Positions 715-54,520 of a stretch of 54,520 nucleotides of DNA are shown here, in pieces. The notes beneath the pieces were generated by a model. That model made no database searches. It saw only the letters and a list, made by a program, of their open reading frames with translations, and was not told where the DNA came from. Within the stretch, counting starts at the first letter, position 1. Each line of letters opens with the position of its first letter. Position numbers and translations under genes: made by a program. Source of the DNA: Streptosporangiaceae bacterium (GTDB taxonomy: Bacteria > Actinomycetota > Actinomycetes > Streptosporangiales > Streptosporangiaceae); the NCBI GenBank assembly GCA_025934635.1, contig JAICWX010000014.1:1-54520 (forward strand), read 5' to 3'.

Positions 715-1711
715 AACCACTGGGCCTCCTGAGGCCAACGGCACCGTCAGCTACCTCGAGGCGATCGCCGCGGGGCTGGCCAGCGAGATGGACGCTGATC
801 CGGACGTGTTCCTGATCGGCGAGGACGTCGGCCAGTTCGGCGGGGCGTTCAAGGTAACCAAGGGCTTCCTGGACCGGTTCGGCCCGCGGCGGGTCATCGA
901 CAGCCCGATCGCGGAGTCGGGTTTCACCGGGCTGGCCTGCGGCGCGGCGCTCATGGGGCTGCGGCCGGTGGTGGAATTCCAGTTCGCCGACTTCATCTCG
1001 TGCGCGTTCGACCAGATCATCAACAACTGCTCCAAGCAGCACTACCGGACCGGTAACCCCATCCCGCTGACGATGCGCGCCCCGTTCGGTGCCCGGCTGC
1101 GGGCCGGCCCCACGCACTCGCAGAGCGTCGAGGCCTACTTCGCGCACATCCCCGGCCTGAAGATCGTCGCGCCGGCCACGCCGGCCGACGCCGCCGGGCT
1201 GCTCATCAGCGCGATCCGCGACAACAACCCGGTGCTGTACCTGGAGAGCAAGTACCTGTACCGGCGGATCGAGGTGCCCGGGCCGCTGTCCCTCGAGCCG
1301 GTGCCGATCGGGTCGGCCAAGGTCGTCCGCGAAGGCACCCGGGTCAGCCTGCTGACCTACTCGGTCGGCGTGCACCAGGGCCTGGAGGCCGCCGCGGAGC
1401 TCGCCAAGGAGGGCATCTCGGTCGAGGTGGTCGACCTGCGCACGCTCGTGCCGCTCGACGTCGCGACGATCGCCGCGTCGGTGAACAAGACCTCCCGCGC
1501 CGTGATCCTGCACGAGGATGCCCGCCGCCTGGGCTACGGCGCCGAGATCGCCGCCACCGTGCAGGAGGAGTGCTTCTGGCAGCTCGACGGGCCGGTCGTC
1601 CGCATCGCCGGCAAGAACACGCCGATCCCGACCAGCCCGGCGCTCGAGGACGCGGCCGTGCCGCAGCTGCCCGAGATCATCAGCACGCTGCGCCGCGTGG
1701 CGACGGCCTGA
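704..1711 (+). CDS. 2-oxo acid dehydrogenase E1 component beta subunit
   Basis: A complete 335-residue transketolase-like beta subunit. Hallmarks are the N-terminal segment with GEDVG, the PIAESGFTG stretch, the FADF segment, and the C-terminal transketolase domain with LLTYSVGV and EVVDLRTLVPLD. It pairs with E1 alpha to form the alpha2beta2 decarboxylase. The ATG at 704 lies inside the end of the alpha gene and has GGAGGG at 690-695 as ribosome binding site. E2 follows 12 nt after the stop. Length and domain order match the family and no defect is visible. Confidence 0.95.
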   Translation: MPLETTGPPEANGTVSYLEAIAAGLASEMDADPDVFLIGEDVGQFGGAFKVTKGFLDRFGPRRVIDSPIAESGFTGLACGAALMGLRPVVEFQFADFISCAFDQIINNCSKQHYRTGNPIPLTMRAPFGARLRAGPTHSQSVEAYFAHIPGLKIVAPATPADAAGLLISAIRDNNPVLYLESKYLYRRIEVPGPLSLEPVPIGSAKVVREGTRVSLLTYSVGVHQGLEAAAELAKEGISVEVVDLRTLVPLDVATIAASVNKTSRAVILHEDARRLGYGAEIAATVQEECFWQLDGPVVRIAGKNTPIPTSPALEDAAVPQLPEIISTLRRVATA

Positions 1712-1723
1712 GGGGAGACCGCC

Positions 1724-2986
1724 ATGGCTGACGTCTTCAAGATGCCCAAGCTCGGCGAGACCGTCACCACCGGCACGGTGACCAGGTGGCTGCTGGCCGT
1801 GGGGGACCCGGTCGCCTTCGACGACCCCCTGCTCGAGGTGGCCACCGACAAGGTCGACTCGGAGATCCCGAGCCCGTACAGCGGCGTCCTGCTCGAGATC
1901 ATGGTGCCCGAGGGGGAGACCGTCGCCGTCGGCGCGGAGCTCGCCCGCATCGGCACCCCCGCGGAACCGGGCCAGGCTCCGCCGTCGGCGCCTTCATCAA
2001 CCGCATCAAACACATCAGGTACTTCGGTCGCACCGGCCTCACCGGCCCCAGTGGCCAACGGCCGGGCCAAGCTGTCGCCGATCGTCAGGAAGCTGGCCGC
2101 TCAGCACGGTATCGACCTCACCGCGGTCCAGGGCTCCGGTGTCAGCGGGCGGATCACCCGCGAGGACATCGAGGCCGTCATCGCCCGGGCCGGGGAAGCC
2201 CCGGCCACGGCCCCCGCCGTCACTCCGGCCGTCACTCCAGCCCCGTTCGTTCCGCAGCCCTCACCGGTCACCGCCGGGTCCAGGGACGAGGTCCAGCCGC
2301 TGTCCCGGATGCGCCTGGCCATCGCCGAGCGGATGACCGAGTCGCTGCGGGTCGCCCCGCACGTCTGGACGTCGGTCGAGGTGGACCTGCAGGCGGTGGA
2401 GGAGGTACGCCGCCAGCACAAGGAACGGTTCCGGCGCGAGGAGGGTACCTCGCTCACCTATCTCGCCTTCGTCGCCCGCGCCGTCTGCGACGCCCTGCGC
2501 GCGTTCCCGGTGGTCAACTCCTCGCTCGACATGGCCGCCAGGACCCGCGTCCTGCACCACTACGTCAACCTCGGGATCGCGGTCGACCTGAGCGAGCAGG
2601 GCCTGGTCGTCCCGGTGATCAGGGACGCCGACGGGCTCAACCTGCGCGGGCTGGCCCGGGCGATCAGGGACGTGGCGGACAAGGCCACAGCGGGCCGGTC
2701 CGCACCCGACGACCTGGCCGGGTCCACGTTCACGATCACGAACCCGGGGCCGTTCGGCGGCTACGCCTCGGCGCCCATCATCAACCAGCCGAACTCCGCG
2801 ATCCTCTCGATCAACGAGGTGGCCCGCCGCCCGACGGCGGTCGGCGACGCGGTCGCGGTTCACTACATGACCATCCTCGGGTTCAGCTACGACCACCGGG
2901 CGTTCGACGGCGTCACCGGGTCCCGCTTCCTGGCCCGCGTCCGCGACGCGCTCCAGGACCGGGACTGGGCCGCCGAGCTCGGATAA
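1724..2986 (+). CDS. Dihydrolipoamide acyltransferase (E2) of the 2-oxo acid dehydrogenase complex
   Basis: 420 residues with the classical E2 order. A single lipoyl domain (about 1-75) carries the modified lysine K43 in EVATDKVDSEI. A Ser/Thr/Pro/Ala linker follows, then the peripheral subunit-binding domain (about 107-142, LSPIVRKLAAQHGID), a second linker and the catalytic domain (about 190-420). The active-site motif DHRAFDG (H391, D395) is intact. It accepts the acyl group from E1 and transfers it to CoA. It has one lipoyl domain, as in branched-chain E2 and unlike multi-lipoyl pyruvate E2 proteins. No E3 gene follows, so dihydrolipoamide dehydrogenase must be encoded elsewhere. GGGGAG lies just upstream of the ATG. 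Confidence 0.95.
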   Translation: MADVFKMPKLGETVTTGTVTRWLLAVGDPVAFDDPLLEVATDKVDSEIPSPYSGVLLEIMVPEGETVAVGAELARIGTPAEPGQAPPSAPSSTASNTSGTSVAPASPAPVANGRAKLSPIVRKLAAQHGIDLTAVQGSGVSGRITREDIEAVIARAGEAPATAPAVTPAVTPAPFVPQPSPVTAGSRDEVQPLSRMRLAIAERMTESLRVAPHVWTSVEVDLQAVEEVRRQHKERFRREEGTSLTYLAFVARAVCDALRAFPVVNSSLDMAARTRVLHHYVNLGIAVDLSEQGLVVPVIRDADGLNLRGLARAIRDVADKATAGRSAPDDLAGSTFTITNPGPFGGYASAPIINQPNSAILSINEVARRPTAVGDAVAVHYMTILGFSYDHRAFDGVTGSRFLARVRDALQDRDWAAELG

Positions 2987-3007
2987 TCACAGAAAGGCGG
3001 GGTTGCC

Positions 3008-3622
3008 GTGCTGCGGGTGGGGCTTACCGGAGGCATCGGTTCTGGCAAGAGCGAGGTGTCCAGGCGGCTGGCGAAGCACGGCGCCGTTCTCATCGACGCC
3101 GACGTGGCCGCGCGGGAGGTCGTCGTGCCCGGCTCACCCGGGCTGGCGTGCATCGCCGGGACATTCGGAACCGGGGTGCTCCGCCCGGACGGCTCGCTGA
3201 ACCGCGAGCGGCTGGGGGAGATCGTGTTCAGCGATCCGGGCCTGCGCACGAAGCTGAACGAGATCGTCCACCCGCTGGTCCGTGAGTGGATGCAGGCGGC
3301 CGAGGACGCCGCCGTGCGCGCCGCCGCCCCGCCGGGACCGGTCGTCCTGCACGACGTCCCGCTGCTGGCGGAAAGCCGCGGCCGGGCGGGCTTCGACCTG
3401 GTGATCGTGGTCGACGTGCCGCCCGAGGTGCAGGCCGAGCGGCTGGTCCGGCTGCGCGGCCTGCCCGCCGAGCAGGCCCGGGCCCGGATGGCCGCCCAGG
3501 CCAGCCGGGAGCAGCGGCTGGCCCTGGCCGACATCGTGATCGACAACTCCGGGTCGCTGGACGACCTGGACCGCCGGGTCGGGGAGGTCTGGGCCGACCT
3601 CGAACGCCGGGCCGCCGCCTGA
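3008..3622 (+). CDS. coaE: Dephospho-CoA kinase
   Basis: A 204-residue P-loop kinase that phosphorylates the 3'-hydroxyl of dephospho-CoA, the last step of CoA synthesis. The Walker A loop GGIGSGKS sits at residues 8-15; [10 protein letters not shown] and the HPLVREWM and DVPLLAES segments are characteristic. The GTG start has AGAAAGGCGG just upstream. Mycobacterial CoaE carries an extra C-terminal GrpB-like domain; this one ends at the kinase core. It sits 21 nt after the E2 gene, a CoA-consuming enzyme, and before uvrB, an order also found in Mycobacterium. Confidence 0.96.
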
Positions 3623-3700
3623 CCGGTCCCGGCGGACGCCGGCGGAATGTCAGACCCCCGTCCTAGAGTTGAACCCTCGGGGATCTAGGAGGTCAGGTTC

Positions 3701-5842
3701 GTGCGTCCAGTTACTGATTTGCAGCGCAAGGTGGCGCCGTTCCAGGTCATCTCCGACATGGTCCCGGCCGGCGACCAGCCGACGGCGATCGCCGAGATCT
3801 CGCGGCGCATCCAGGCCGGGGACGAGCACACGGTGCTGCTCGGCGCGACCGGCACCGGCAAGACCGCCACCGTGGCCTGGATCGCGGAGCGGCTGCAGCG
3901 CCCGCTGCTGGTCATGCTGCCCAACAAGACGCTCGCCGCGCAGTTCGCCAACGAGCTGCGCGAGATGCTGCCCAAGAACGCGATCGAGTACTTCGTCTCC
4001 TACTACGACTACTACCAGCCGGAGGCGTACGTCCCGCAGACCGACACCTACATCGAGAAGGACTCCTCGATCAACTCCGAGGTGGAGAGGCTCCGGCACT
4101 CCGCCACCAACTCGCTGCTCACCCGCCGGGACACCATCGTCGTCTCCTCCGTGTCGTGCATCTACGGCCTGGGCACCCCGCAGGAGTACGTGGACCGGAT
4201 GCTGAAGGTCAAGCTGGGCGACACGATCGAGCGTGAGGCCCTGCTGCGCAAGCTGGTCGGCATGCAGTACGCGCGCAACGACGTGGCCTTCACCCGCGGC
4301 ACCTTCCGGGTCCGCGGCGACACCATCGAGATCATCCCGATGTACGAGGAGCTCGCGGTCCGGATCGAGATGTTCGGCGACGAGATCGAGCGGCTCTCGA
4401 CGCTGCACCCGCTCACCGGCGAGGTGGTCAGCGAGGACCAGGAGCTGTACGTCTTCCCGGCCACCCATTACGTGGCCGGCCCGGAGCGGATGGAGCGCGC
4501 CATCCGCGGCATCGAGGCCGAGCTGGCCGAGCGGCTCGGCGAGCTCGAGCGCGGCGGCAAGCTGCTCGAGGCGCAGCGGCTGCGCATGCGCACCACCTAC
4601 GACGTGGAGATGATGCGGCAGGTCGGCAGCTGCGCGGGAATCGAGAACTACTCGCGGCACATCGACGGCCGCGAGCAGGGCACCCCGCCGAACACCCTGC
4701 TCGACTACTTCCCCGAGGACTTCCTGCTGGTCGTCGACGAGTCGCACGTGACCGTCCCGCAGATCGGCGCCATGTACGAGGGGGACGTGTCCCGCAAGCG
4801 GGTCCTGGTGGACCACGGCTTCCGGCTGCCGAGTGCGATCGACAACAGGCCTCTGACCTGGGATGAGTTCGTGGAGAGGATCGGCCAGACGATCTACCTG
4901 TCGGCCACCCCGGGGCCGTACGAGCTGCAGCGCGCGGCCGGCGACGTCGTCGAGCAGGTGATCCGGCCGACCGGGCTCATCGATCCCGAGGTCATCATCA
5001 AGCCGACCAAGGGCCAGATCGACGACCTGCTGCACGAGATCAGGCAGCGGGCCGAGCGGGACGAGCGGGTGCTGGTCACCACGCTGACCAAGCGGATGTC
5101 CGAGGACCTGACCGACTACCTGCTCGAGAACGGCGTCCGGGCCCGCTACCTGCACAGCGAGGTCGACACGCTGCGCCGGGTCGAGCTGCTGCGCGAGCTG
5201 CGCGTCGGCGAGTACGACGTGCTGGTCGGCATCAACCTGCTCCGCGAGGGCCTCGACCTGCCCGAGGTGTCGCTGGTGGCCATCCTCGACGCGGACAAGG
5301 AAGGCTTCCTGCGCTCGGGTACCTCGCTGATCCAGACCATCGGCCGCGCCGCCAGGAACGTGTCCGGTCAGGTGCACATGTACGCCGACCGGATCACGCC
5401 GTCCATGCAGCGGGCGATCGAGGAGACCAACCGGCGGCGGGAGAAGCAGGTCGCCTACAACGAGGCGCACGGCATCAACCCGCAGCCGCTGCGTAAGCGG
5501 ATAGCCGACATCCTGGACCAGATCGTCCGCGAGGACGCCGACACCGAGCAGCTGCTGATCGGCGGCGGCGGGCGGCAGCAGTCCCGCGGCAAGGCGCCGG
5601 TCCCCGGGCTGTCCTCGCGGGCCCGGGCGGTCGCCGCGCAGGCGGGCGAGCGCACCTCCGCCGGCGAGCCGACCAAGGAGGCCAGCGCCGCCCGCGGCGA
5701 GCTCGTCGGGCTGATCACCGAGCTGACCGAGCAGATGCACGTCGCCGCCGCGGAGCTGCAGTTCGAGGTGGCGGCCCGGCTCCGCGACGAAATCCGCGAG
5801 CTCAAGTCCGAGCTTCGCGGCATGCACGCCGCCGGGGTCTGA
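3701..5842 (+). CDS. uvrB: Excinuclease ABC subunit B
   Basis: 713 residues, the normal UvrB size. It loads on DNA with UvrA, verifies the lesion and recruits UvrC in nucleotide excision repair. Visible are Walker A GATGTGKT (about 48-55), the beta-hairpin with [11 protein letters not shown], the DESH helicase box, the helicase motifs [10 protein letters not shown] and QTIGRAARN, and a C-terminal UVR domain (about 672-707) for UvrC contact. The GTG at 3701 is fixed by a strong AGGAGGT at 3687-3693. A TAGAGT hexamer at 3664-3669 could be a -10 element. The long reverse-strand open frame over this gene is a GC-bias shadow. Confidence 0.98.
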
Positions 5843-5911
5843 CCCCGCCCCCCGGCCACCCACCCCCCGGCCACCCCCCCGCCGGCCACCCGGGCGGCCG
5901 GGCGGCTGGGC

Positions 5912-5928
5912 GGCTGGGCTGCCCAGCC
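5912..5928. terminator. Hairpin downstream of uvrB
   Basis: GGCTGGGC and GCCCAGCC are perfect 8-bp arms around a single T; in practice the inner pairs would open to form the loop. No T-tract follows, which is common in actinomycete terminators. It lies 70 nt past the uvrB stop. Confidence 0.4.
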
Positions 5929-6010
5929 TGGCTACGGGCGCGCCCCTGAGAGCCTCAGCTACCTCATCGGCATCACAGCTCCCGCCTGTCACTCAATCGG
6001 CGATCCAATA

Positions 6011-6068
6011 ACGACATGAATGCCCCATCGATGTCGCGGGAACGGCATCGATGCTCCATCGATGCCGT
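6011..6068 (-). repeat. Dispersed palindromic repeat, copy A
   Basis: On the plus strand, ACGGCATCGATG (6042-6053) and CATCGATGCCGT (6057-6068) form a perfect 12-bp inverted repeat with a CTC loop. CATCGATG occurs again at 6026-6033, and a looser outer arm lies at 6011-6022. Read on the reverse strand from 6068, 44 of 50 bases match the element at 35432-35481, with weaker similarity continuing outward. Confidence 0.8.
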
Positions 6069-6411
6069 AAACGACTGTCCCGGAACCGGCACGCTGGCAA
6101 CAATGACAACGCGGGGAGCACATGGCCCGCTGGCGCCTGCGGGGCCGGGCGCTCGTGCTGAAGAGCCGTCACTGCGTGACTTCTATGTCACCGTCTTGTT
6201 ACCGGTGGTGATTATATTGCTGGAATTCGTTGCGCTGATAAACCCGGGGACATACACGGCTGACGGCGACCTGACTATGCGCGGATTCTGGCGTTCTCGC
6301 AGCTCGGACTATTCGCTTTTTCGGCCGTTACCGGCGGGGTATAGTCCGTGGCGGAACGGGGAGCGCGGTCGGGTCCGCGCGGCGGGGGCCGCGAAAGACG
6401 GAGGCACATTA

Positions 6412-7419
6412 ATGCCCTGGGTCGTCCGGGACGCGGTCGACGAGATCAACCGCGCCGTCGGCCGCCGCTGGCAGGGGCTGGACCGGTTCCTGCCGCCCCG
6501 GGCCGAGTTCCCTGAGGGCTGCGCGGCGCCGTTCGTGACGACCGGCTCCAACGGGCGCCCGGCCGGGCTCGCCGTCTGCCGCCACGAGTACATCCCGGGA
6601 GGCGCGCTGAACCAGACCTGGGGCATGGCGGCCCGGTTCTCGCTGATCCTGCGGATACGTGACCTGGACACGGACGCGGCCGTCGAGGACCTGCTCGGGC
6701 AGTGGCGTGATCACCTGGCGGACCTGCCCGAAGCGGCCGCCGCCGACACCGCGGCGATGATCAGCTGGCCGTCCCGCGACGTCACCGGGGTAAACGCGCT
6801 GCTGCGGCACGGGATGCAGCCCCTCACCGTGATAGCGGTGCGATCCGGTTCCGCCGATGCCAGCCGCTCCGGCGGCGCCAGTACCGGCGGCGCCAGTCCC
6901 GGCAGTGCCACGGCCGGCGGGCTGGCCGGCCTGGCCATCCGCGAAGCCGGCCCGCAGGACCTCGACGCGGTGACCGAACTCGAGCTCGGCGTGATCCGCT
7001 ACGACGCGCTGTTCGGCGCGGCCATCGTCCGCCCGGCCACCGAGGCGCTGGTCCGGGCCGAGACGCAGGCGGCGCTGGCCGCCCGCCCGGCCTGGGCCTG
7101 GCTGGCCGAGCGGGACGGGCGGCCCGTCGGCCTGGTCCACGTCCAGCCGCCCGGGCTGTCCGGCTGGATCGCCGGCATGGCCCGCGGCGGCGCGACGGCC
7201 TACCTGCAGACCATGTTCGTCCGGCCCGGTGAGCGGGGCACCGGGATCGGCACGGCCCTGGTCAGGCACGCACACGCGGTCCTGGATGCGCGTGGCGTGC
7301 AGACTGCGCTGCTGCACTACGCGCAGCTGAACCCGCTGTCCGCGCCGTTCTGGAACCGGATGGGCTACCGGCCGCTGTGGACCGGATGGGAGGTGCGCCC
7401 CGCTACCGCGCTTCGCTGA
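6412..7419 (+). CDS. GNAT family N-acetyltransferase (two-domain)
   Basis: 335 residues from an ATG at 6412 with GGAGG at 6400-6404. The C-terminal half (about 180-335) is a GCN5-related acetyltransferase: the acetyl-CoA loop reads RPGERGTGIGTALV and is followed by LNPLSAPFWNRMGYRPLW, the usual end of the fold. The N-terminal half (about 1-150) looks like a degenerate GNAT-like domain, separated by a Gly/Ser/Ala-rich linker (SRSGGASTGGASPGSATAGG). The substrate is unknown. It is transcribed alone, upstream of the permease gene. Confidence 0.8.
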   Translation: MPWVVRDAVDEINRAVGRRWQGLDRFLPPRAEFPEGCAAPFVTTGSNGRPAGLAVCRHEYIPGGALNQTWGMAARFSLILRIRDLDTDAAVEDLLGQWRDHLADLPEAAAADTAAMISWPSRDVTGVNALLRHGMQPLTVIAVRSGSADASRSGGASTGGASPGSATAGGLAGLAIREAGPQDLDAVTELELGVIRYDALFGAAIVRPATEALVRAETQAALAARPAWAWLAERDGRPVGLVHVQPPGLSGWIAGMARGGATAYLQTMFVRPGERGTGIGTALVRHAHAVLDARGVQTALLHYAQLNPLSAPFWNRMGYRPLWTGWEVRPATALR

Positions 7420-45696: not shown

Positions 45697-48600
45697 TCAG
45701 GCCGCTCCGTCCGGGTCCAGCTCCCAGTCCAGCTCCCAGCGCCGCAGCATTCTGTCGGATCCCGCGGAGACAGCGCACCGGCCGTTGCCGCCGACGTGCA
45801 CCGAGGTGATCCGGCCGGCGTGACCGGACAGCGTCCGCAGCCAGGTCCCGGCGTGCAGGTCGAGCACCCGGACCAGCCCGTCGTCACTGCCCGCGACGGC
45901 GAACCGCCCGTCAGGGCTGACTGATACCGCAGTCATCGCCCGCGCGGTGCCGTCCCGGGATTCCTCCCCGGCGAGGCTGTGCAGCAGGCGGGCGCCCTCG
46001 ACCTGCCAGACCCGCACCCGGCCGTCGTCGCTGACGGTTACCAGGTGGCCGCCGTCGGGGGTCAGGCCGACGTCGGAGAAGCCGTTGCTGGTCAGTAGCG
46101 ACTCGATCGCGTGGAGGTACTCTTCGCCGAGTACCGGGGCCGTCCGCTCTTCCGCCATATCCCGCAGGAGCACCTCGAGGTCGCCGCCGAGCGACAGCAG
46201 CCGGCGGCCGCCGATGTGCTCGCACAGGGCCTTCATCGGGCGGCGGTGAACCCGGCCGCTCGTCACCAGAGATCCATTGGCCAGCTCCCAGCCGCGCACC
46301 TGGTCGCCGACCACCGCGTAGCAGCGGCGGCCGTCAGCGCTGAAGCACAGCGGCCCCCGCCAGCCCGGCTGGCCGGCGACCCGCAGCGTCATCAGGCACT
46401 GGCCGGTGTCCAGGTCCCAGTGCAGTATCCGGCCGTCGCTGCCACCGGACAGCGCGGTCCGCTGGTCCGGGCTCACCGCGATGGTTCTGACCCCGTGGTC
46501 CGAGGGGTAAAACAGGCGTCGCCCGGTTTCCCGCTCGATCAGCCGGCGGCTGTTGACCGCGAGGCCTCCGAACTCCCGCAGCTCATGCCCGGTGTCCAGG
46601 TCCCACAGTCGCAGGTTGTACTGGTCCGCGCAGAGCGCCCGGCGGCCGTCGGCCAGGAGCCGGACCCGAGCGCCGTCTGAGGGCCAGACCTCAGTATCGT
46701 GAGTGACGGCGGAGAACCGGACGGCGCCGGCCGGCCACGCCCCGCGCAGCCCGGTCCGGGGCAGCCGGGAGGACAGGTCATGCCAGGCCAGCAGAGCCTG
46801 CTCGTCACGCTCGTGCCCGGGAAGGTCCCGGGCCCGCACGAGCAGGTCGTACGCCTCCCGCTCCCGCTGGCGGCCCAGCGCCGACCGGGCTGCGGCCAGC
46901 AACCCGGCGAACCGGTCCCGGCGATCGGTGAGCTCCCGCAGCGGGACCGGCCGGCAGAGCTCGTACGGCGCGGTGTAACTCCCGAAGGCCGGGACCGGAC
47001 CGACGTCCACCCATCCGGCATCGGCCAGCGCGTCGACGTAGGCTTCGGCTCCGGTACAGGCCAGCGCGCGGGTACGGCCATCGGCGCTCAGGGCGACCGA
47101 GACGGGGTACCGGCCTCGTGAATTGACGTCAGTACGCAGGCAGCGCCCGGTGGCGAGGTCCCACCATCGCACCACGCCTTCGTAGTCTCCGCTGACCGCG
47201 AGGCGGCCGTCGGCGCTGACCGTGACGGACAGCAGCCAGCCCGGCCCGGCCGGCAGCCGGCGCACCACGTGCGGCCACCGCGCGCGCGGTCCTTCCGGCG
47301 TTTCCCGCTCGGGAGCCGGGTCCCCGGACCGCCTACCGGACAGGTCGTACCAGAGCAGGTAGTTCTCCCCAGCCGTGAAGAGCCCGCGGCTGGGCCCGTC
47401 CGTGACGAGCGCGCGGCTGGCGTCCGGCAGCATGGCCATCGGAGCATGTCCGTCCAGTTTCAGCAGCAGTCGGCCGGTGGGCAGGTCCCACAATCCGATA
47501 CCCCCGGCCGCCACCGAGGCGGTCTGCCCGTCGGCCGACAGCGCCACGTCGTCCACCGAGACGGGGTCACCCCCGTCATCGAAGCGGACGGCGTATCGCT
47601 CGTCATCCCGCCCTAGCGTGATCACCCGTAGCGGGAGGCGCGGGGACGTGGTGTCCCACCAGCGCACAGTTCCGTCCCGGCCGGCGGTGACCGCGTGACG
47701 GCCGTCCGCCGACAGTCGGCAGGCCACCCAGCCGCCATGACCCTCGAGCTTGGCCAGCAGGCGTCCGGTGGCGGTGTCCCACAGGTACACCATGCCCGCC
47801 CAGTCGCTGCTCAGGGCACGGGTTCCGTCGGCACTGAGTCCGACCGCGGACATGCCCGCCAAGTGCCCGGTAAATCGCCGGGAATCACGCGCGGCCAGGT
47901 CATGGCATTCAAGCTCGCCGCGGCCGGGGGCCAGGACCAGGCGGGCATCGGGTGTCATGGTGACGGCCTTGGCGTTGCCCCGGAGCGCGAATCCGCCCGA
48001 GGGTTGCGCGGGCCGCCGGCCGTGATCGTCCAGCATTGCCCGGGCGGTGGACAGCAGCGCCGGGACGGCCGGATCAGGGAAGGCGTTCTCCGTCGCCGCC
48101 CGGAGCAGCGAGGAGACCGCCTCCGGACGGGCGCGCTCCAGCTGGACCTGGGCCTGCAGGATGCTGGCGCGCTCGATCGCGTCACCGGCGGCCCCGGTGC
48201 CAGCCAGCTTCAGCCGGTCGAGCAGCTCTTCGTCGCTGAGCTGTCCTTCGCGCCAGTCCAGCAGTCCCTGGTTGTACAGTGCCTCGAGATGCTGCGGGTC
48301 GCTTTCGAGCGCCTGCCGGAGTGCCTGGCGTGCCTCAGCTGGCCGGCTGAGGTCCAGCAGGGACAGGGCCTTGTTGTTCAGCCCGTCGGCACGCAGCTGC
48401 GCTGGGTCAGCGGCTCTGCGCGGGTAGCGGCTCCCGAGCTCGCGCTCGTAAGCCTCGACCAGGGCGGCGGCGACCGAGGCCATGCTGTCCGGGCGGTCGG
48501 CCGGGTCTTCCCGCAGGCAGCGGCCGAGCAGGCCGGCCACCGCGGCCGGCATGGCCGGCAGCCCTGGCTGCGGGGGACCGTTCTCCAGGTAATCATCCAG

Positions 48601-49341
48601 CGCCGCCCCGGCGGCCCGGCCGGTGTGCCAGGAGATGCCCCCGTTGAACATCTCCAGCACCGAGGTGGCAAAGCTCCAGGTGTCCGAGCGGTGGCTCAGC
48701 GGCCGGCGCTCGTCCTGCTCCGGGGAGGCGTACCCGGGCGTCATGCCCGCCCAGGTGACGAGCAGGGAGCGCGCGGTCCCGGCGTCCGGGGCGGGTTCGG
48801 CGGTGCCGAGCTGCCGGGCCCGCGCCAGCCCGAAGTCGGTGACCCGGGCCGTGCCGTCCTGGTCCAGCAGCACGTTGCCCGGTTTGACGTCCTGGTGGAC
48901 GACACCCTGGTCGTGGGTGTACGCCAGGCCCCAGGCGACCTGGACGGCGATGTCGAGGACCCGCTCGAGCACCTCCCGCGGCGTCCCCCGGTACAGCGAG
49001 CCGTCACCGATCCGGGAACTCAGGCTCCCCCCGGCCACGTACTCGGCGAACACCCGCGGAACGCCGTCGATCGTGCGCACGTAGTGGCAGGTGCACACGT
49101 GGGGGTGCGCACCCAGCTCGACCCACGTCTGCGCCTCGCGGACGAACCGCTCCCGGTCGCCGTCCCCGCGGAACAGCTCAGCCCGCGGGCTCTTGACCGC
49201 CAGGTCGACATCCCAGCCGACGTGCCGGACCCGGTACACCAGGCCCATCGCGCCCTCGCCGTGTACCTCGAGCACCCGGTACAGGCCCGCGACGAGGTCA
49301 CCGACGCGCCACCGCCCGGTCCCCGCGCCAGCGCTACCCAT
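45697..49341 (-). CDS. Ser/Thr protein kinase with TPR and WD40 repeats
   Basis: 1214 residues, the largest protein here. The kinase domain (about 15-300) has GEGAMGLVYRV, LAVKSPR, HQDVKPGN, TDFGLARA and PGYASPEQ; HQD replaces HRD, making it a non-RD kinase. TPR-like helices follow (about 320-400: NNKALSLLDLSRPAEARQAL, LEALYNQGLLDW). From about 450 to the end there are WD40 repeats with many SADG turns and WD/WW ends (VRWWDTTS, ILHWDLDTGQ, VRVWQVEG), probably two propellers separated by a helical segment near 790-860. It has no membrane helix. It is cotranscribed with the FHA kinase, which could read its phosphorylated threonines. Confidence 0.92.
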   Translation of the reverse strand: MGSAGAGTGRWRVGDLVAGLYRVLEVHGEGAMGLVYRVRHVGWDVDLAVKSPRAELFRGDGDRERFVREAQTWVELGAHPHVCTCHYVRTIDGVPRVFAEYVAGGSLSSRIGDGSLYRGTPREVLERVLDIAVQVAWGLAYTHDQGVVHQDVKPGNVLLDQDGTARVTDFGLARARQLGTAEPAPDAGTARSLLVTWAGMTPGYASPEQDERRPLSHRSDTWSFATSVLEMFNGGISWHTGRAAGAALDDYLENGPPQPGLPAMPAAVAGLLGRCLREDPADRPDSMASVAAALVEAYERELGSRYPRRAADPAQLRADGLNNKALSLLDLSRPAEARQALRQALESDPQHLEALYNQGLLDWREGQLSDEELLDRLKLAGTGAAGDAIERASILQAQVQLERARPEAVSSLLRAATENAFPDPAVPALLSTARAMLDDHGRRPAQPSGGFALRGNAKAVTMTPDARLVLAPGRGELECHDLAARDSRRFTGHLAGMSAVGLSADGTRALSSDWAGMVYLWDTATGRLLAKLEGHGGWVACRLSADGRHAVTAGRDGTVRWWDTTSPRLPLRVITLGRDDERYAVRFDDGGDPVSVDDVALSADGQTASVAAGGIGLWDLPTGRLLLKLDGHAPMAMLPDASRALVTDGPSRGLFTAGENYLLWYDLSGRRSGDPAPERETPEGPRARWPHVVRRLPAGPGWLLSVTVSADGRLAVSGDYEGVVRWWDLATGRCLRTDVNSRGRYPVSVALSADGRTRALACTGAEAYVDALADAGWVDVGPVPAFGSYTAPYELCRPVPLRELTDRRDRFAGLLAAARSALGRQREREAYDLLVRARDLPGHERDEQALLAWHDLSSRLPRTGLRGAWPAGAVRFSAVTHDTEVWPSDGARVRLLADGRRALCADQYNLRLWDLDTGHELREFGGLAVNSRRLIERETGRRLFYPSDHGVRTIAVSPDQRTALSGGSDGRILHWDLDTGQCLMTLRVAGQPGWRGPLCFSADGRRCYAVVGDQVRGWELANGSLVTSGRVHRRPMKALCEHIGGRRLLSLGGDLEVLLRDMAEERTAPVLGEEYLHAIESLLTSNGFSDVGLTPDGGHLVTVSDDGRVRVWQVEGARLLHSLAGEESRDGTARAMTAVSVSPDGRFAVAGSDDGLVRVLDLHAGTWLRTLSGHAGRITSVHVGGNGRCAVSAGSDRMLRRWELDWELDPDGAA

Positions 49342-49504: not shown

Positions 49505-50305
49505 TCAGGATTTACGGCTTCGCGTCCGCTGGGTCTTCTGCGGTTCGGCCTTGCGCGGTTCCTCGATCAGCTTCACGGCCAGGTCCGGGCCGCCCGACTG
49601 CACGAGCTCCACCCGCTCCGGCAGCATGGCCAGGAAGGCGCGGAAGCTGCGGGCCCCGTAGTTGTGCTCGTCGAACGCCGCGTCCAGTGTCAGCATCTTG
49701 CTCTTCAGCCCGCCGGCGTTCATCGTCTCGGCGTTGGACTCCTCGAACGCGCGGACCAGCAGCTGCTCGGCCTCGCCGATGTCGAAGGCCGCGGCCGGCC
49801 GGGCAGCCGGCACGACCTCCGCGACCAGCGTGCCCCAGTACTTGTACTCCGAGCAGACCGAGACCAGCTTGCGGCTGGCGTTCGCCTCGGTCCCGACGCC
49901 GACCACCCACTTGCCGAACTCCCGCAGCCGCTGCACCAGCGGCGAGTAATCACCGTCTCCGCTGACCAGGACGAACACGCTGATCTCGGGGTGCACGATC
50001 AGGGTTTCCATGGCGTCGACCGCCATCCGGATGTCGGCGGCGTTCTTGTTCTGGATGCCGACGCGCGCCACCTGGATGAGGTCCACGCCGTTCATGGCCA
50101 GGTCGTCCTGGTGGCCGCCGAACAGCGAGTTGGCCCAGTCCGCGTAGGCACGGCGCACCGAGGCGTTGCCGTAGCCGCGGCACAGCCGGGTCAGCGCCTC
50201 GTACGGCGCCGGGTTGGCCTGGTCAGGCAGTTCCTTGACCGCGCCGAGCACGAGGTTCTCGAAATCCACGAACACCGCGACCTGCGCGGACCCATCAGGC
50301 TCCAT
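49505..50305 (-). CDS. NYN (LabA-like PIN) domain protein
   Basis: 266 residues. The NYN domain (about 8-165) has VAVFVDFENL with the first acidic residue, then GVDLIQVAR, AADIRMAVDAMETL and VFVLVSGDGDYSPLV, the acidic metal site of PIN/NYN RNases. The C-terminal part (about 180-250) resembles an OST-HTH/LOTUS-like winged helix, and the tail is basic (KTQRTRSRKS). It probably binds or cuts RNA. It starts 6 nt after the UBP gene stop. The 163 bp between its stop and the WD40 kinase start may hold the kinase promoter. Confidence 0.87.
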   Translation of the reverse strand: MEPDGSAQVAVFVDFENLVLGAVKELPDQANPAPYEALTRLCRGYGNASVRRAYADWANSLFGGHQDDLAMNGVDLIQVARVGIQNKNAADIRMAVDAMETLIVHPEISVFVLVSGDGDYSPLVQRLREFGKWVVGVGTEANASRKLVSVCSEYKYWGTLVAEVVPAARPAAAFDIGEAEQLLVRAFEESNAETMNAGGLKSKMLTLDAAFDEHNYGARSFRAFLAMLPERVELVQSGGPDLAVKLIEEPRKAEPQKTQRTRSRKS

Positions 50306-50311
50306 GGAGGC

Positions 50312-50659
50312 CTAATGTACGTGCATCCGCCAGTCGCTCGGTACCCGGCCCTTGGGCCCCGGCACGCCCTGGCCGGCCGGGTGGTGCTGCGGCGGCGCGA
50401 GCTCGGGCCCGTCGTAGGTCTCCTTGGTCTCGTAGCTGAAGAACCAGTCCTCGCCCGGCTCGAAGCTCCGGATGAACGGGTGCCCGGTCTCGGTCGCGTG
50501 CGCGGTGGCGTGCTGGGCGGGCGAGGTGTCGCAGCAGCCGATGTGGCCGCACTGCGCACACCGGCGCAGGTGCACCCACCAGCCGGCCGTCGCCTCGCAC
50601 TCGACGCAGCCTTCCCCGCTCGGGGGTACCGAAGGGTCAATGCCCGCGATCTCCGACAT
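50312..50659 (-). CDS. UBP-type zinc finger protein
   Basis: 115 residues. The zinc-finger residues follow the ubiquitin-hydrolase (ZnF-UBP) pattern: CVECEA, RRCAQCGHIGCCD, HATAHATETGHPFI and then EDWFFSYETKE. Stand-alone bacterial UBP fingers of this type are usually encoded next to a histidine kinase and a response regulator/thioredoxin-reductase fusion, as here. Bacteria without ubiquitin must use the domain for another C-terminal peptide or a redox role. The ATG is 2 nt after the kinase stop with GGAG upstream. Confidence 0.9.
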   Translation of the reverse strand: MSEIAGIDPSVPPSGEGCVECEATAGWWVHLRRCAQCGHIGCCDTSPAQHATAHATETGHPFIRSFEPGEDWFFSYETKETYDGPELAPPQHHPAGQGVPGPKGRVPSDWRMHVH

Positions 50660-50661
50660 GC

Positions 50662-52146
50662 CTAGTTCTCCTCCACGTCTTGCCAGCTCACTGGGAGCCG
50701 GACCCGGAACCACGTGTCGCCCGGCGACGATTCTAGCGACAGGTCTCCGTGGTGCTTCTTCACCACGATGCGCCATGAGATGTCAAGCCCGAGGCCCGTT
50801 CCCTCGCCCACCGGCTTGGTGGTGAAGAACGGCTCGAAAATCCGGTTCCTGATCTCCGGCGGTACCCCGGGCCCGGTGTCGCCGAACTCCACGAACACCT
50901 CGCCTTCCCGGTCCTTCCCGGTGCGCACCGTCAGGGTCCCGGACTGGCCCATCGCCGATACCGCGTTGTCGATCAGGTTCGTCCAGACCTGGTTCAGCTC
51001 GGCCGCGTAGGCCGGGATCGGCGGCAGCGACCGGTCGTACTCCTTGACTATCTTGATGCCCGCCGGGAACTTCCCGGACAGCATCAGCAGCGTGCTGTCC
51101 ACCAGTTCGTGCACGTCGACGACCTGGTACGGTGCCCGGTCCAGCTGCGAGTACTGCTTGGCCGCGCCGACCAGGGTGGAGATCCGGGTGGTGGAGTCCT
51201 GGATCTCGTTCATCAGCAGCTCGGTGTCGACGGTGTAGTTCAGCCACCGCAGCGCGGGCTCCAGCGTGCCCTCGTCCACCGTGGCCTCGACGTGGTCGAG
51301 CCAGGCCACGTCCAGCCCGGCCGCGACGAACGTCGGGGCCAGCTGCCAGCCTTCGGTGCACCCGTGGTCCTCGAGCCAGTCCGCGATGGCGTCCTCCCGG
51401 TCGGAGGCCTCGAGCGGGGAGAGAGCCACCGCCTTCGGCACCCGTTCGGCTGCCTCTTCCTGCAGCTTGATCAGGGTTTCCAGGGTGGTCCGATCCCACT
51501 TCCCGCCCGCGATCATGCCCAGCTTGTGCCGCATCCCGGCGACCCGCTCGCGCAGCGTCGAGGTGGCCCGCACGGCCGCCGCGGCCGGGTTGTTCAGCTC
51601 GTGGGTGAGGCCGGCCGACAGGGAGCCGAGGGCGAGCAGCCGTTCCCGCTGCCCGATGGCCTGCTGGGCGTTCTTGTTGCCGAAGAACAGCCCTTCGAGC
51701 AGGTGCACCGCCATCGGGAACCACTCGCGCATCAGCTCGGCGAAGACATCGGCGTCCAGCACGAAGAACCGCGACGGCTCCGCCGTCCGCAGCGAGTTCT
51801 GGTAGGTCTGCGGCACCCGGTCGCCGAGGTAGGCGGTGAAGGCCCCGGAGTACACGCCCCGGGTGGAGGTCCGGCCGACCTCGATGTCGTCCGCCCCGAC
51901 CCGGCGCGACATCACGACGGTCCCCTCGAGCAGCACGTAGAAGCAGGTCGCGGGGGCACCCTCGGGGTAGACGGGCCCCGTCTCGATCAGCTCCACGTGG
52001 CCCCGCTCGCACAGCCACTGCAGCTGGTCGTCGGTGAGCTTCTCGAACAGGAACAGCGTCCGCAGCTCATCGGCGCTGCACGAGAGCTGGGTCACGTCGG
52101 CCGCGTTCAGCGTCGTGGCGGCCGTGTTCACATCAGAAGCGCTCAT
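50662..52146 (-). CDS. Sensor histidine kinase with N-terminal cyclic-nucleotide-binding-like domain
   Basis: 494 residues. A CRP-like beta-barrel (about 30-145: VYPEGAPATCFYVLLEGTV and YSGAF) comes first. The dimerisation helix has phospho-acceptor H182 in LTHELNNPAAAAV, and the ATPase domain has NLIDNAVSA, DTGPGVP, FEPFFTTKP and GTGLGLD boxes. There is no membrane helix, so it senses a cytoplasmic signal. The ATG overlaps the stop of the response regulator fusion (ATGA), with GGAGAAAAG before it. The two proteins are almost certainly cognate partners. Confidence 0.93.
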   Translation of the reverse strand: MSASDVNTAATTLNAADVTQLSCSADELRTLFLFEKLTDDQLQWLCERGHVELIETGPVYPEGAPATCFYVLLEGTVVMSRRVGADDIEVGRTSTRGVYSGAFTAYLGDRVPQTYQNSLRTAEPSRFFVLDADVFAELMREWFPMAVHLLEGLFFGNKNAQQAIGQRERLLALGSLSAGLTHELNNPAAAAVRATSTLRERVAGMRHKLGMIAGGKWDRTTLETLIKLQEEAAERVPKAVALSPLEASDREDAIADWLEDHGCTEGWQLAPTFVAAGLDVAWLDHVEATVDEGTLEPALRWLNYTVDTELLMNEIQDSTTRISTLVGAAKQYSQLDRAPYQVVDVHELVDSTLLMLSGKFPAGIKIVKEYDRSLPPIPAYAAELNQVWTNLIDNAVSAMGQSGTLTVRTGKDREGEVFVEFGDTGPGVPPEIRNRIFEPFFTTKPVGEGTGLGLDISWRIVVKKHHGDLSLESSPGDTWFRVRLPVSWQDVEEN

Positions 52147-53819
52147 CTTTTCTCCAGGTACCGGTGCACGAGCATGACGGCCAGTGCGCCCTCGCCGACG
52201 GCCGAAGCCACCCGCTTGGCCGATTCCGACCGCGCGTCCCCGGCCACGAACACGCCGGGCACGCTGGTCTCCAGGTGGTAGGGCATCCGGTCGAGCTCCC
52301 AGCCGCGCGGCCGCTCCCCGTCTACGGACAGGTCGGGGCCGGCGATCACGAACCCCGCGGAATCCCGCACGACCACTCCGTCCAGCCAGCCGGTCAGGGG
52401 CGCTGCCCCGATAAACAAGAACAGCAACTGGGCGTCTACTGTTTCCGTGGCGCCCGATGCGCTGTCCCGCAAGGTCAGGCTCTCCAGGTGGTCCTCGCCG
52501 GCCGCGCCGACCACCTCGGTGCAGGTGCGGACGTTGATGTTGGGTACGTCCGCGATCTGCTTGATCAGGTAGTACGACATCGACCGCTCCAGCGCCGGCC
52601 CGCGGACCAAGATGGTCACCGACTTGGCGTGCCGCGACAGGTACATGGCGGCCTGCCCGGCGGAGTTGGCGCCGCCGACGATGTACACGTCCTGCCCGAG
52701 GCAGGCCGAGGCCTCGGTGAGGGCCGAGCCGTAGTAGACCCCGCGCCCGGTCAGGTCGGCCAGTCCCGGCGCCTCCAGCTGCCGGTAGGACACCCCGGTG
52801 GCCAGGATGACCGTGTGCGCGTCGATCGAGGAGCCGTCGGCGAACCGGACCCGGCGGGCCGACCCGCACACGTCCAGGGCGATCACGTCCCGCGTGGTCA
52901 GCACCTCGGCCCCGAACTTGGCCGCCTGCCGCCGCGCCCGGTCGGTCAGCTGCGCGCCGGAGACGCCGTCCGGGAAGCCCAGGTAGTTCTCGATCCGCGA
53001 GCTCTGCCCGGCCTGGCCGCCGGTCGCGGTGCGCTCGAGCAGCACGGTGCGCAGCCCCTCGGAGGCGCCGTACACCGCGGCGCCGAGCCCGGCCGGGCCG
53101 CCGCCGATCACGATGAGGTCGTAGAAGTCCTTGGACGGGGTGGTGGCCAGGCCGACGCGGGCGGCCAGCTCGGCGTCGCTCGGCTCGACCAGCGGCTCGC
53201 CCTCGGGCGTGATGACCACCGGCAGCGACAGGCCGTCCGCCTGCGCGGCCTCGAGCAGCCGCTGCCCCTCCGGCTCGTCGGAGTTGTACCAGCGGTACGG
53301 CACCTGGTTGCGGGCCAGGAACTCGCGCACCTCGGAACACCGGGCCGACCAGCGGTGGCCGACGACCTTGGTCTCGGGCACCGGCCGGTGGTCCGACTCC
53401 ATCCAGGCCTCGAGCAGCGCGTCGACCACCGGGTAGAGCTTCTCCTCCGGCGGGTCCCACGGCTTGAGCAGGTAGTGGTCGAGGTCGACCACGTTGATGG
53501 CGTCGATCGCGGCCCCGGTGTCGGCGTAGGCGGTGAGCAGCACCCGGCGCGCTCCCGGGTAGATGTCCATCGCCCGCTCGAGGAACTCGATGCCGTTCAT
53601 CTCGGGCATCCGGTAGTCGGCCAGGATCACCGCGACCAGGTCGCCGCGGAGCTTCATCTGCCGCAGCGCATCCAGCGCGGAGGGTCCCGACTCGGCCCGC
53701 ACGATGCGGTGCCGTTCGCCGTAGCGCCGCCGCAGGTCCCGGGCGACCGCACGGGATACGCCTGGGTCGTCGTCCACGGTGAGGATCGCCGTGCGGATCG
53801 TCTCGGCCTGCTCGGTCAT
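52143..53819 (-). CDS. Response regulator fused to thioredoxin-reductase-like flavoprotein
   Basis: 558 residues. A REC domain (1 to about 130) has the acidic pair in LTVDDDP, phospho-acceptor D68 in ADYRMPEMNG, LLTAYAD and LKPW. A glutaredoxin-like stretch (about 150-225) has RWSARCSEVREFL, keeping only the second Cys of CxxC. A thioredoxin-reductase-like FAD/NADPH domain (about 230-558) has IGGGPAGLGAAVYG, ENYLGFPDG, VGGANSAGQAAMYL and VPGVFVAGDARSESAKR. The CxxC pair of true thioredoxin reductases is missing (GVYYGSALTEASAC at that place). TACTAT 7 nt before the ATG at 53819 favours this start over 53828. Confidence 0.92.
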   Translation of the reverse strand: MTEQAETIRTAILTVDDDPGVSRAVARDLRRRYGERHRIVRAESGPSALDALRQMKLRGDLVAVILADYRMPEMNGIEFLERAMDIYPGARRVLLTAYADTGAAIDAINVVDLDHYLLKPWDPPEEKLYPVVDALLEAWMESDHRPVPETKVVGHRWSARCSEVREFLARNQVPYRWYNSDEPEGQRLLEAAQADGLSLPVVITPEGEPLVEPSDAELAARVGLATTPSKDFYDLIVIGGGPAGLGAAVYGASEGLRTVLLERTATGGQAGQSSRIENYLGFPDGVSGAQLTDRARRQAAKFGAEVLTTRDVIALDVCGSARRVRFADGSSIDAHTVILATGVSYRQLEAPGLADLTGRGVYYGSALTEASACLGQDVYIVGGANSAGQAAMYLSRHAKSVTILVRGPALERSMSYYLIKQIADVPNINVRTCTEVVGAAGEDHLESLTLRDSASGATETVDAQLLFLFIGAAPLTGWLDGVVVRDSAGFVIAGPDLSVDGERPRGWELDRMPYHLETSVPGVFVAGDARSESAKRVASAVGEGALAVMLVHRYLEKR

Positions 53820-53953: not shown

Positions 53954-54199
53954 TCAGGGACGCCTTGTCTGCGCCGCCGGCGCCGCGCGGTACCCGCCCG
54001 GGCCGGGCCGCCGGCGCCGCGCGGGGCGGCGGTCGCCGGTACCGGGCCCGCCGGGAATCCGGGCGCGGATCGGCGCGAGGCCGTCGGCCTGCGGTTCGAT
54101 CTGGTCCGCGACGGCGTGCAGCGTCCGGCGCAGGTAGTCCGCGAAGCCGTGCCAGCTGGCCTGGGCGCCGTCCGGCCCGAGGCCGGCGTCCGGCGTCAT
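53954..54199 (-). CDS. Short protein following the sigma factor, possibly truncated
   Basis: 81 residues, starting at an ATGA overlap with the sigma factor stop. The first half (LRRTLHAVADQIEPQADGLAPIRARI) resembles the N-terminal segment of proteins encoded after SigE-type ECF sigma genes in actinomycetes, which normally continue into a membrane helix and an extracellular part. Here the frame ends after an Arg/Pro-rich tail without a membrane helix, so truncation or frameshift is possible. An anti-sigma role is inferred from position only. The 134 bp to the next gene show no other frame of note. Confidence 0.5.
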   Translation of the reverse strand: MTPDAGLGPDGAQASWHGFADYLRRTLHAVADQIEPQADGLAPIRARIPGGPGTGDRRPARRRRPGPGGYRAAPAAQTRRP

Positions 54200-54520
54200 G
54201 ACTCCTCCAGGGCCGCGCGCAGGGCGGACATGCCGCGGGAGGTATGGCTCTTGACCGCGCCCCGGCTGATCCCCATGGCCGCGGCGATGTCGGCCTCGGA
54301 CAGGTCGGCGTAGTAGCGCAGCACGATGGCCTCGCGCTGACGGTCGGGCAGGTGCCGCAGCGCGGCGACGACCGCGTCCCGTTCGAGCAGGACCAGGGCG
54401 CCGTGCTCGGCGCTGGGCATGTCCGGCGGGGCCTTCTGCAGGTTCTTGTCGACCACGGTGCGGTGCCGCAGCACCGACCGGGACCGGTTCACCACCGCCT
54501 GCCGCAGGTACGCCAGCGCC
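54196..54520 (-). CDS. ECF RNA polymerase sigma factor, SigE-like (5' part outside window)
   Basis: The frame runs off the right edge; about 107 C-terminal residues are visible. AYLRQAVVNRSRSVLRHRTVV is the end of region 2 and linker, and LPDRQREAIVLRYYADLSEADIAAAMGISRGAVKSHTSRG is region 4 with the helix-turn-helix that reads the -35 element. The visible end matches the SigE-like ECF factors of Streptomyces and relatives. The last bases overlap the next gene (ATGA). Confidence 0.9.
   Translation of the reverse strand, partial: ALAYLRQAVVNRSRSVLRHRTVVDKNLQKAPPDMPSAEHGALVLLERDAVVAALRHLPDRQREAIVLRYYADLSEADIAAAMGISRGAVKSHTSRGMSALRAALEES

Follow-up and report, generated by a model that had tools for sequence, protein, structure and literature searches.

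A predicted two-component module linking a soluble histidine kinase to a receiver-flavoprotein without dithiol sites in a Streptosporangiaceae bacterium

Introduction

Receiver domains fused to an output of the thioredoxin reductase (TrxR) type have been described before. Such proteins are mentioned as 'Mycobacterium-like' REC-thioredoxin reductase or receiver-TrxB fusions in the parts of two papers available to us (PMC5847659; PMC9739842), in line with the statement of an earlier, purely letter-based annotation (the original prediction) that REC-reductase fusions exist in databases. In a table of the second paper, SCO7298 of Streptomyces coelicolor appears as a response regulator whose output is TrxB and whose partner is SCO7297. 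In the accessible sections of further sources, the same gene is named trxB3 or thioredoxin reductase; polysulfide raises its level in the wild type and, as the text is phrased, in an adpA mutant as well (PMC9952706), and it is strongly upregulated by acid shock (PMC2631018). Here, we analyzed a gene cluster of similar architecture in a DNA stretch of 54,520 nt from a Streptosporangiaceae bacterium (contig JAICWX010000014.1, assembly GCA_025934635.1, positions 1-54,520; hereafter, the window), which encodes a receiver-linked flavoprotein, a soluble histidine kinase, a UBP-type zinc finger protein and a NYN-domain protein.

Gene content and conservation of the cluster

The four open reading frames are all located on the minus strand, in the transcription order receiver-flavoprotein (558 aa, positions 52143-53819), kinase (494 aa, 50662-52146), UBP finger (115 aa, 50312-50659) and NYN protein (266 aa, 49505-50305). 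According to these coordinates, the first two genes overlap by 4 nt and are followed by gaps of 2 nt (kinase/UBP) and 6 nt (UBP/NYN), which agrees with the dense packing, with overlaps or gaps of at most 6 nt, on which the original prediction had based a four-gene redox module.

The conservation of this arrangement was analyzed in the best 80 of at least 501 confirmed flavoprotein loci in species genomes, mostly Streptomyces (scan loci). In all 78 loci with at least 2.5 kb of downstream sequence, the flavoprotein gene is followed by the kinase gene and then by a UBP gene on the same strand and within 2.5 kb; the contigs of the remaining 2/80 end too early. The kinase core lies within 600 nt in 77/78 loci and at 601 nt in L079, confirming the soluble kinase as the direct neighbor of the receiver-flavoprotein. 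Of the four families expected to occur together, flavoprotein, kinase and UBP finger did so in 78/78 loci and the NYN gene in 0/80. The flanking families (DUF4032, metallo-beta-lactamase-like, TetR) were not constant either, the best being present in 11/24 loci examined of the 80.

A broader view was obtained from 149 actinobacterial genomes drawn evenly across the phylum (phylum sample). Here, zf-UBP matches were found in 31/149 genomes (39 matches) and flavoprotein matches at E 1e-45 in 53/149, with the weak end of the latter resembling ordinary thioredoxin reductases. In total, 76 regions were fetched, 36 around UBP matches (holding 37/39) and 40 around flavoprotein matches. They contain 36 receiver-type flavoprotein genes, 19 of them with an adjacent kinase and six with a UBP gene within 2.5 kb; among the 19 kinase-linked genes, five have a UBP neighbor. 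The UBP gene also lies near 2/3 genes of a second type, which carries a CRP-like domain (cNMP-type), and near 0/8 genes with neither receiver nor cNMP domain. Seen from the finger, seven of the 36 UBP regions hold a family flavoprotein within 2.5 kb, three are fused and three adjacent to a Na+/H+ exchanger, three adjoin a DUF5996 gene, and none of these partners is present in the remaining 20, which include short contigs. Judged by gene order, these counts identify the receiver-flavoprotein and the kinase as the core of the module and the UBP finger as its third member, constant in the clade of the window and optional outside it, with the NYN gene incidental.

A flavoprotein without dithiols

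The flavoprotein combines three parts. Its receiver domain (residues 10-141, positions 53397-53792) matches Response_reg with 51.5 bits (cut-off 30.2) and includes the predicted phospho-acceptor D68 (codon 53616-53618). The residues D16, D17, D68, T96 and K119 are intact in the window and in 80/80 scan loci; the predicted receiver fold has low confidence at residues 101-130. The thioredoxin-reductase-like FAD/NAD(P) domain (residues 232-557, positions 52149-53126) matches Pyr_redox_2 with 108.5 bits (cut-off 26.1). It shares fold and FAD/NAD(P) motifs with thioredoxin reductase, the motif residues showing little or no variation across 42 aligned proteins, and AhpF is among its top fold matches in a second-round comparison (flavoprotein residues 228-558, kinase residues 167-489).

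Between both parts, we identified a predicted degenerate glutaredoxin fold which the first reading had overlooked (residues 150-221, positions 53157-53372). This assignment is based on an alignment with the CxxC-bearing glutaredoxin domains of six receiver-less relatives (L196-L201) and on the glutaredoxin order of strands and helices in the predicted model (residues 151-220; predicted local distance difference test score, pLDDT, of 83-93 by block). The relatives are fusions of glutaredoxin and thioredoxin reductase in which both CxxC sites are retained, and they root the tree of the thiol-less family. In the window protein, the glutaredoxin site reads SARC, the CATC site of the reductase is replaced, and cysteines are found solely at residues 161, 318, 373 and 433.

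The same holds across the family, with CxxC present in 0/116 receiver-type proteins over the stretch from the receiver to the end of the reductase part. Two stray motifs were observed in cNMP-type proteins, CECC in L086, which lies away from the reductase site in the alignment, and CARC in L208. Since the motif is missing from all 116 receiver-type proteins, we conclude from the sequences that the flavoprotein is not a thioredoxin reductase and that a classical dithiol mechanism is excluded. The description of the output as thioredoxin-reductase-like, fused to REC and free of CxxC was therefore correct, and a search for a functional CxxC elsewhere in the protein, which would have made it an ordinary enzyme of this kind, returned none.

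The genomes G016, G031 and G045 hold 4, 6 and 6 flavoprotein-family matches, respectively.

Kinase, receiver and proposed mechanism

The kinase passes the Pfam cut-off for HATPase_c (81.7 bits), and the residues H182 (codon 51601-51603), N394, D423, G425, G449 and G453 are invariant, with N390 at 90% or more, in 27 aligned kinases including that of the window. The HisKA match remains below its cut-off (14.8 versus 26.9 bits). In the predicted model, a helical insert spanning roughly 78 residues (214-291, positions 51274-51507; block pLDDT 76-96 for residues 211-290) separates the two helices of the dimerization hairpin, and this split may be the cause of the poor fit. The model as a whole reaches a pLDDT of 83.1 and a predicted template modeling score (pTM) of 0.46, with pLDDT 60-77 around H182, and the placement of the domains is therefore unsure. 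The N-terminal domain was annotated as a CRP-like sensor. While the kinase is soluble and adjacent to its receiver as proposed, the cNMP_binding match falls short of the curated Pfam cut-off (24.7 versus 27.5 bits). By eye, the alignment of the window's clade lacks the phosphate-binding letters usual for such domains; the relative L158 passes cNMP_binding with 77 bits. A further locus (L169, positions 856-6852) shows one receiver-flavoprotein followed by three kinase genes of the module type in tandem.

The state of the receiver and the presence of the kinase go together. In the phylum sample, the receiver residues are intact in 17/17 evaluable proteins with an adjacent kinase versus 0/15 without (three receivers not evaluable; the fragment L202 lies outside the alignment), with a Fisher p of 1.8e-9 that ignores kinship. 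The kinase-less receiver-type flavoproteins with degenerate receivers include L176-L191.

We suggest that the three genes form a cytosolic two-component module in which phosphorylation of D68 switches a non-disulfide NAD(P)H/FAD protein, with the finger as a kinase-side accessory; taken as a whole, this is the interpretation we favor by a small measure. The kinase would autophosphorylate on H182 and pass the phosphate to D68, a step that is likely given the intact residues and their co-conservation. The flavoprotein part would descend from a glutaredoxin-thioredoxin reductase fusion that lost both dithiols and kept its FAD/NAD(P) motifs. Phosphorylation would most likely shift the domain rotation or the dimer state of the flavoprotein, and this shift could control the transfer of electrons from NAD(P)H to an acceptor other than a thiol, or create a redox-dependent docking surface. 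A phosphate-controlled change of this kind in the NAD(P)H/FAD protein appears somewhat more probable than its absence. With moderate confidence, the UBP finger, which is fused to the kinase in one observed case and is dispensable in some lineages, is assigned as an accessory on the side of the kinase.

Several observations weigh against this proposal. Streptomyces loci prevail in the scan set, which does not consist of independent cases. Kinase adjacency requires only two changes on the tree, as the 17 receivers without a kinase all fall into a single clade, so that the correlation between receiver and kinase reflects one or two events and is a consistent sign, not an independent replication. 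With respect to the finger, 14/19 receiver-type genes linked to a kinase in the phylum sample have no UBP gene nearby, G041 and G077 carry it far from the pair, G099 has the receiver-kinase pair and no UBP match anywhere in the genome, and L138 is a receiver-type gene with a UBP neighbor and no kinase. The plasmid-borne cNMP-type flavoproteins of Paraburkholderia (L085) and Deinococcus (L086) lack a UBP gene nearby. Finally, cofactor binding, phosphotransfer and activity are themselves predictions from sequence.

The same genes could also work in the reverse direction. The flavoprotein would then act as a sensor of the redox state of NAD(P)H or flavin, setting the lifetime of receiver phosphorylation or a feedback on the kinase, with another partner as the output, perhaps via the UBP finger. 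A sensor would fit a protein that keeps its FAD/NAD(P) motifs and offers no thiol exit for electrons, as would the replacement of the receiver by a CRP-like input domain in related proteins. Moreover, although the receivers of the kinase-less clade are degenerate, alignments that include this clade show a conserved reductase part. On the other hand, the flanking regions revealed no further conspicuous partner, the best families reaching the 11/24 loci mentioned above, and where a receiver-effector fusion sits beside a kinase, the signal normally passes from the phosphate to the effector. We therefore regard a reversed flow as a tentative and rather unlikely alternative to a phosphate-switched flavoprotein.

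The UBP finger

The call of a UBP finger gene in the original prediction is well supported by a zf-UBP match of 51.7 bits (cut-off 22.7). Its membership in the module holds for part of the family: the gene is present in 78/78 evaluable scan loci, occurs in one fusion with the kinase and stands beside flavoproteins in other phyla, but it is absent near 14 of the 19 kinase-linked genes. The fusion, a single case, is L158 (genome G100), where kinase and finger form one 555-residue protein adjoining its flavoprotein, with cNMP_binding, HATPase_c and zf-UBP all above cut-off.

We further examined 125 fingers (78 from scan loci, 46 others and that of the window). The zinc-ligand pattern is retained: C18, C21, C34, C37, C42, C43 and H50 are present in 125/125, H54 and H60 in 124/125, and W72 is nearly invariant; the pair C42-C43 provides one cysteine more than the HDAC6 and USP fingers have at this place. 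A profile of 25 fingers matches the solved bacterial finger 2ida with E 4.1e-42. At residues 43-46, Arg or Lys occurs in 0/125 fingers, whereas a profile alignment shows that the HDAC6 and USP49 fingers have an Arg there. Eukaryotic UBP fingers (HDAC6/USP5) use this Arg to bind the ubiquitin C-terminus. Without it, the finger probably recognizes something other than the ubiquitin C-terminus or acts as a thiol or zinc sensor. A C-terminal tail motif was found in 55/78 scan fingers and in 6/47 others (window, L131, L087, L129, L136 and L137), of which L136 and L137 belong to G041 and G077, two genomes that carry the receiver-kinase pair at another site.

UBP genes were also found on plasmids, with 87 matching records, 19 of which were chosen by hand and opened. 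In 11/19, a family flavoprotein or its pieces (Hymenobacter, L084) adjoins the finger: Rhizobium (2), Rhodococcus (3), Agrobacterium, Microvirga, Gemmatirosa, Burkholderia pyrrocinia, Nocardia farcinica and Hymenobacter. The N. farcinica locus shows the full order of receiver-flavoprotein, kinase and UBP. Among the other opened plasmids are two exchanger fusions (Deinococcus) and two records with DUF5996, and 4/19 lack a partner of these kinds (Variovorax, Nostoc, Streptomyces NBC_01558 and Nonomuraea). Three records were additionally opened from the side of the flavoprotein; the UBP gene is present in that of Rhodococcus DK180 and absent from the neighborhood in the other two (L085 and L086). 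A kinase of the module type adjoins 0/3 cNMP-type genes in the phylum sample and 0/9 of the plasmid-borne ones opened.

Other gene neighborhoods of the finger are recurrent. It is fused to the C-terminal end of a Na+/H+ exchanger in L130, L150, L153, L081 and L211, the last two, from Deinococcus, also with an NAD-binding TrkA_N domain. In L133, L160, L162, L087 and L213, from Actinomycetota and the cyanobacterium Oscillatoria, the UBP gene adjoins a DUF5996 gene. A Rhodococcus chaperone row (dnaK to clpB and trxA) with a UBP gene and a cNMP-domain flavoprotein is found, partly visible per locus, in L083, L212 and L217, and L152 is grouped with them by a ClpB of 93% identity nearby.

One possible, though doubtful, generalization is that the bacterial UBP finger is a cytosolic redox adaptor operating without ubiquitin and serving more than one effector gated by NAD(P)H or by ions; in the module, it would supply in trans the thiols that the flavoprotein has lost. 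If true, a small zinc protein with an invariant C42-C43 pair, one cysteine beyond the ligands expected from HDAC6, would couple to flavoproteins of the thiol-less glutaredoxin-reductase type, whether controlled by a kinase or by a CRP-like domain, as well as to Na+/H+ exchangers, part of which carry an NAD-binding TrkA_N domain. The finger might instead read a ubiquitin-like tag such as Pup and tie the module to protein turnover. The zf-UBP profile indeed matches HDAC6 and USP fingers, and on Rhodococcus plasmids the finger and the flavoprotein are lined up with trxA and genes for chaperones (in Rhodococcus DK17, dnaK-grpE-dnaJ-cbpM-clpB-trxA-UBP-flavoprotein-DUF1931). Against a tag reader stand the missing Arg/Lys at residues 43-46 and the occurrence of the finger in Rhizobium, Deinococcus and Nostoc, which are not known to have Pup, and we consider this explanation very unlikely.

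Neighboring genes

The NYN protein passes its Pfam cut-off with 104.9 bits, as annotated, but the LOTUS part of that annotation does not (20.3 versus 23.8 bits). With a 6-nt gap and the same strand, co-transcription with the module is likely in the window, and it had been proposed that the protein, as a fourth member, couples the redox signal to RNA decay. However, a tblastn search of the flanking sequence found the gene in 0/80 scan loci, a count that leaves out the closest metagenome relatives (flavoprotein up to 98% identical) and for which the contigs of L001 (87% identical) and L069 stop short of the NYN position. Among the other loci scanned, no module has the gene as a neighbor, and the distant relatives (34-38% identity) in 3/8 genomes behind module loci lie in 3-kb stretches without any module gene. 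A four-gene unit is thus highly improbable, and we do not count the NYN gene as a member.

Further downstream on the same strand, the window encodes a 1214-aa protein that joins a protein kinase to WD40 repeats (positions 45697-49341). The window end cuts a gene (54196-54520) for a Sigma-70 region 4 protein, which is probably a sigma factor of the ECF type.

Comparison with known systems

To our reading of titles and the beginnings of abstracts, which made up most of the open-licence literature covered, neither a role for bacterial UBP fingers nor the operon of the module has been described. The closest known arrangement is SCO7298/SCO7297, where a receiver is fused to a thioredoxin-reductase-like domain beside a kinase, as in the module. 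The available parts of PMC9739842 and PMC5847659 do not mention a UBP gene, a glutaredoxin-like fold or lost cysteines for TrxB-output regulators. In the same literature, receiver-TrxB fusions are known, and the UBP member, the dead glutaredoxin domain and the double loss of dithiols were not found described. By its architecture alone, SCO7298 is a probable counterpart of the window flavoprotein. If so, the module would be part of a stress response and the name trxB3 would be misleading. That the protein is instead an ordinary thioredoxin reductase with a regulatory receiver, as the name and the induction of the same-architecture gene by polysulfide and acid shock might suggest (PMC9952706; PMC2631018, as far as accessible), is hardly credible and was rejected, given the absence of CxxC from all receiver-type proteins and a TIGR01292 score far below the equivalog cut-off (209.7 versus 343.45 bits). 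Nevertheless, many of the 120 close homologues listed are named thioredoxin reductase, though barred from the dithiol mechanism, and the accessible text of PMC9952706 counts a gene of the module architecture among thioredoxin reductases.

With low-Mr thioredoxin reductase and AhpF, the flavoprotein has the fold and the FAD/NAD(P) motifs in common. AhpF carries thioredoxin-like domains ahead of its reductase part. The flavoprotein of the module differs from both by the lack of both CxxC sites and by the added receiver. TrxR-like FNRs, which are marked by a missing CxxC, a C-terminal residue stacking on the FAD and the reduction of ferredoxin or flavodoxin, are enzymes of a single-domain type without a receiver. 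According to the accessible part of PMC10294844, they lack CxxC and yet reduce protein partners. They provide a precedent for thiol-free chemistry on the same fold, and the missing CxxC fits the module flavoprotein; FNR entries, however, match it far more weakly than TrxR entries (5xhu, 4.3e-17, versus 7jyp, 2.9e-42).

Closer relatives are the proteins named cNMP-domain thioredoxin-disulfide reductase in plasmid records. They have the same degenerate glutaredoxin-reductase part, often beside a UBP gene, and a CRP-like domain where the module flavoprotein has its receiver. For the finger, 2ida is a solved member of the same family, deposited as 'Hypothetical protein' with no role given there. 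Through the present comparison, bacterial UBP fingers gain defined partners, namely the kinase and flavoprotein of the module, cNMP-domain flavoproteins and Na+/H+ exchangers, and the module offers a genetically simple place to study a flavoprotein that would be controlled by phosphorylation and work without thiols.

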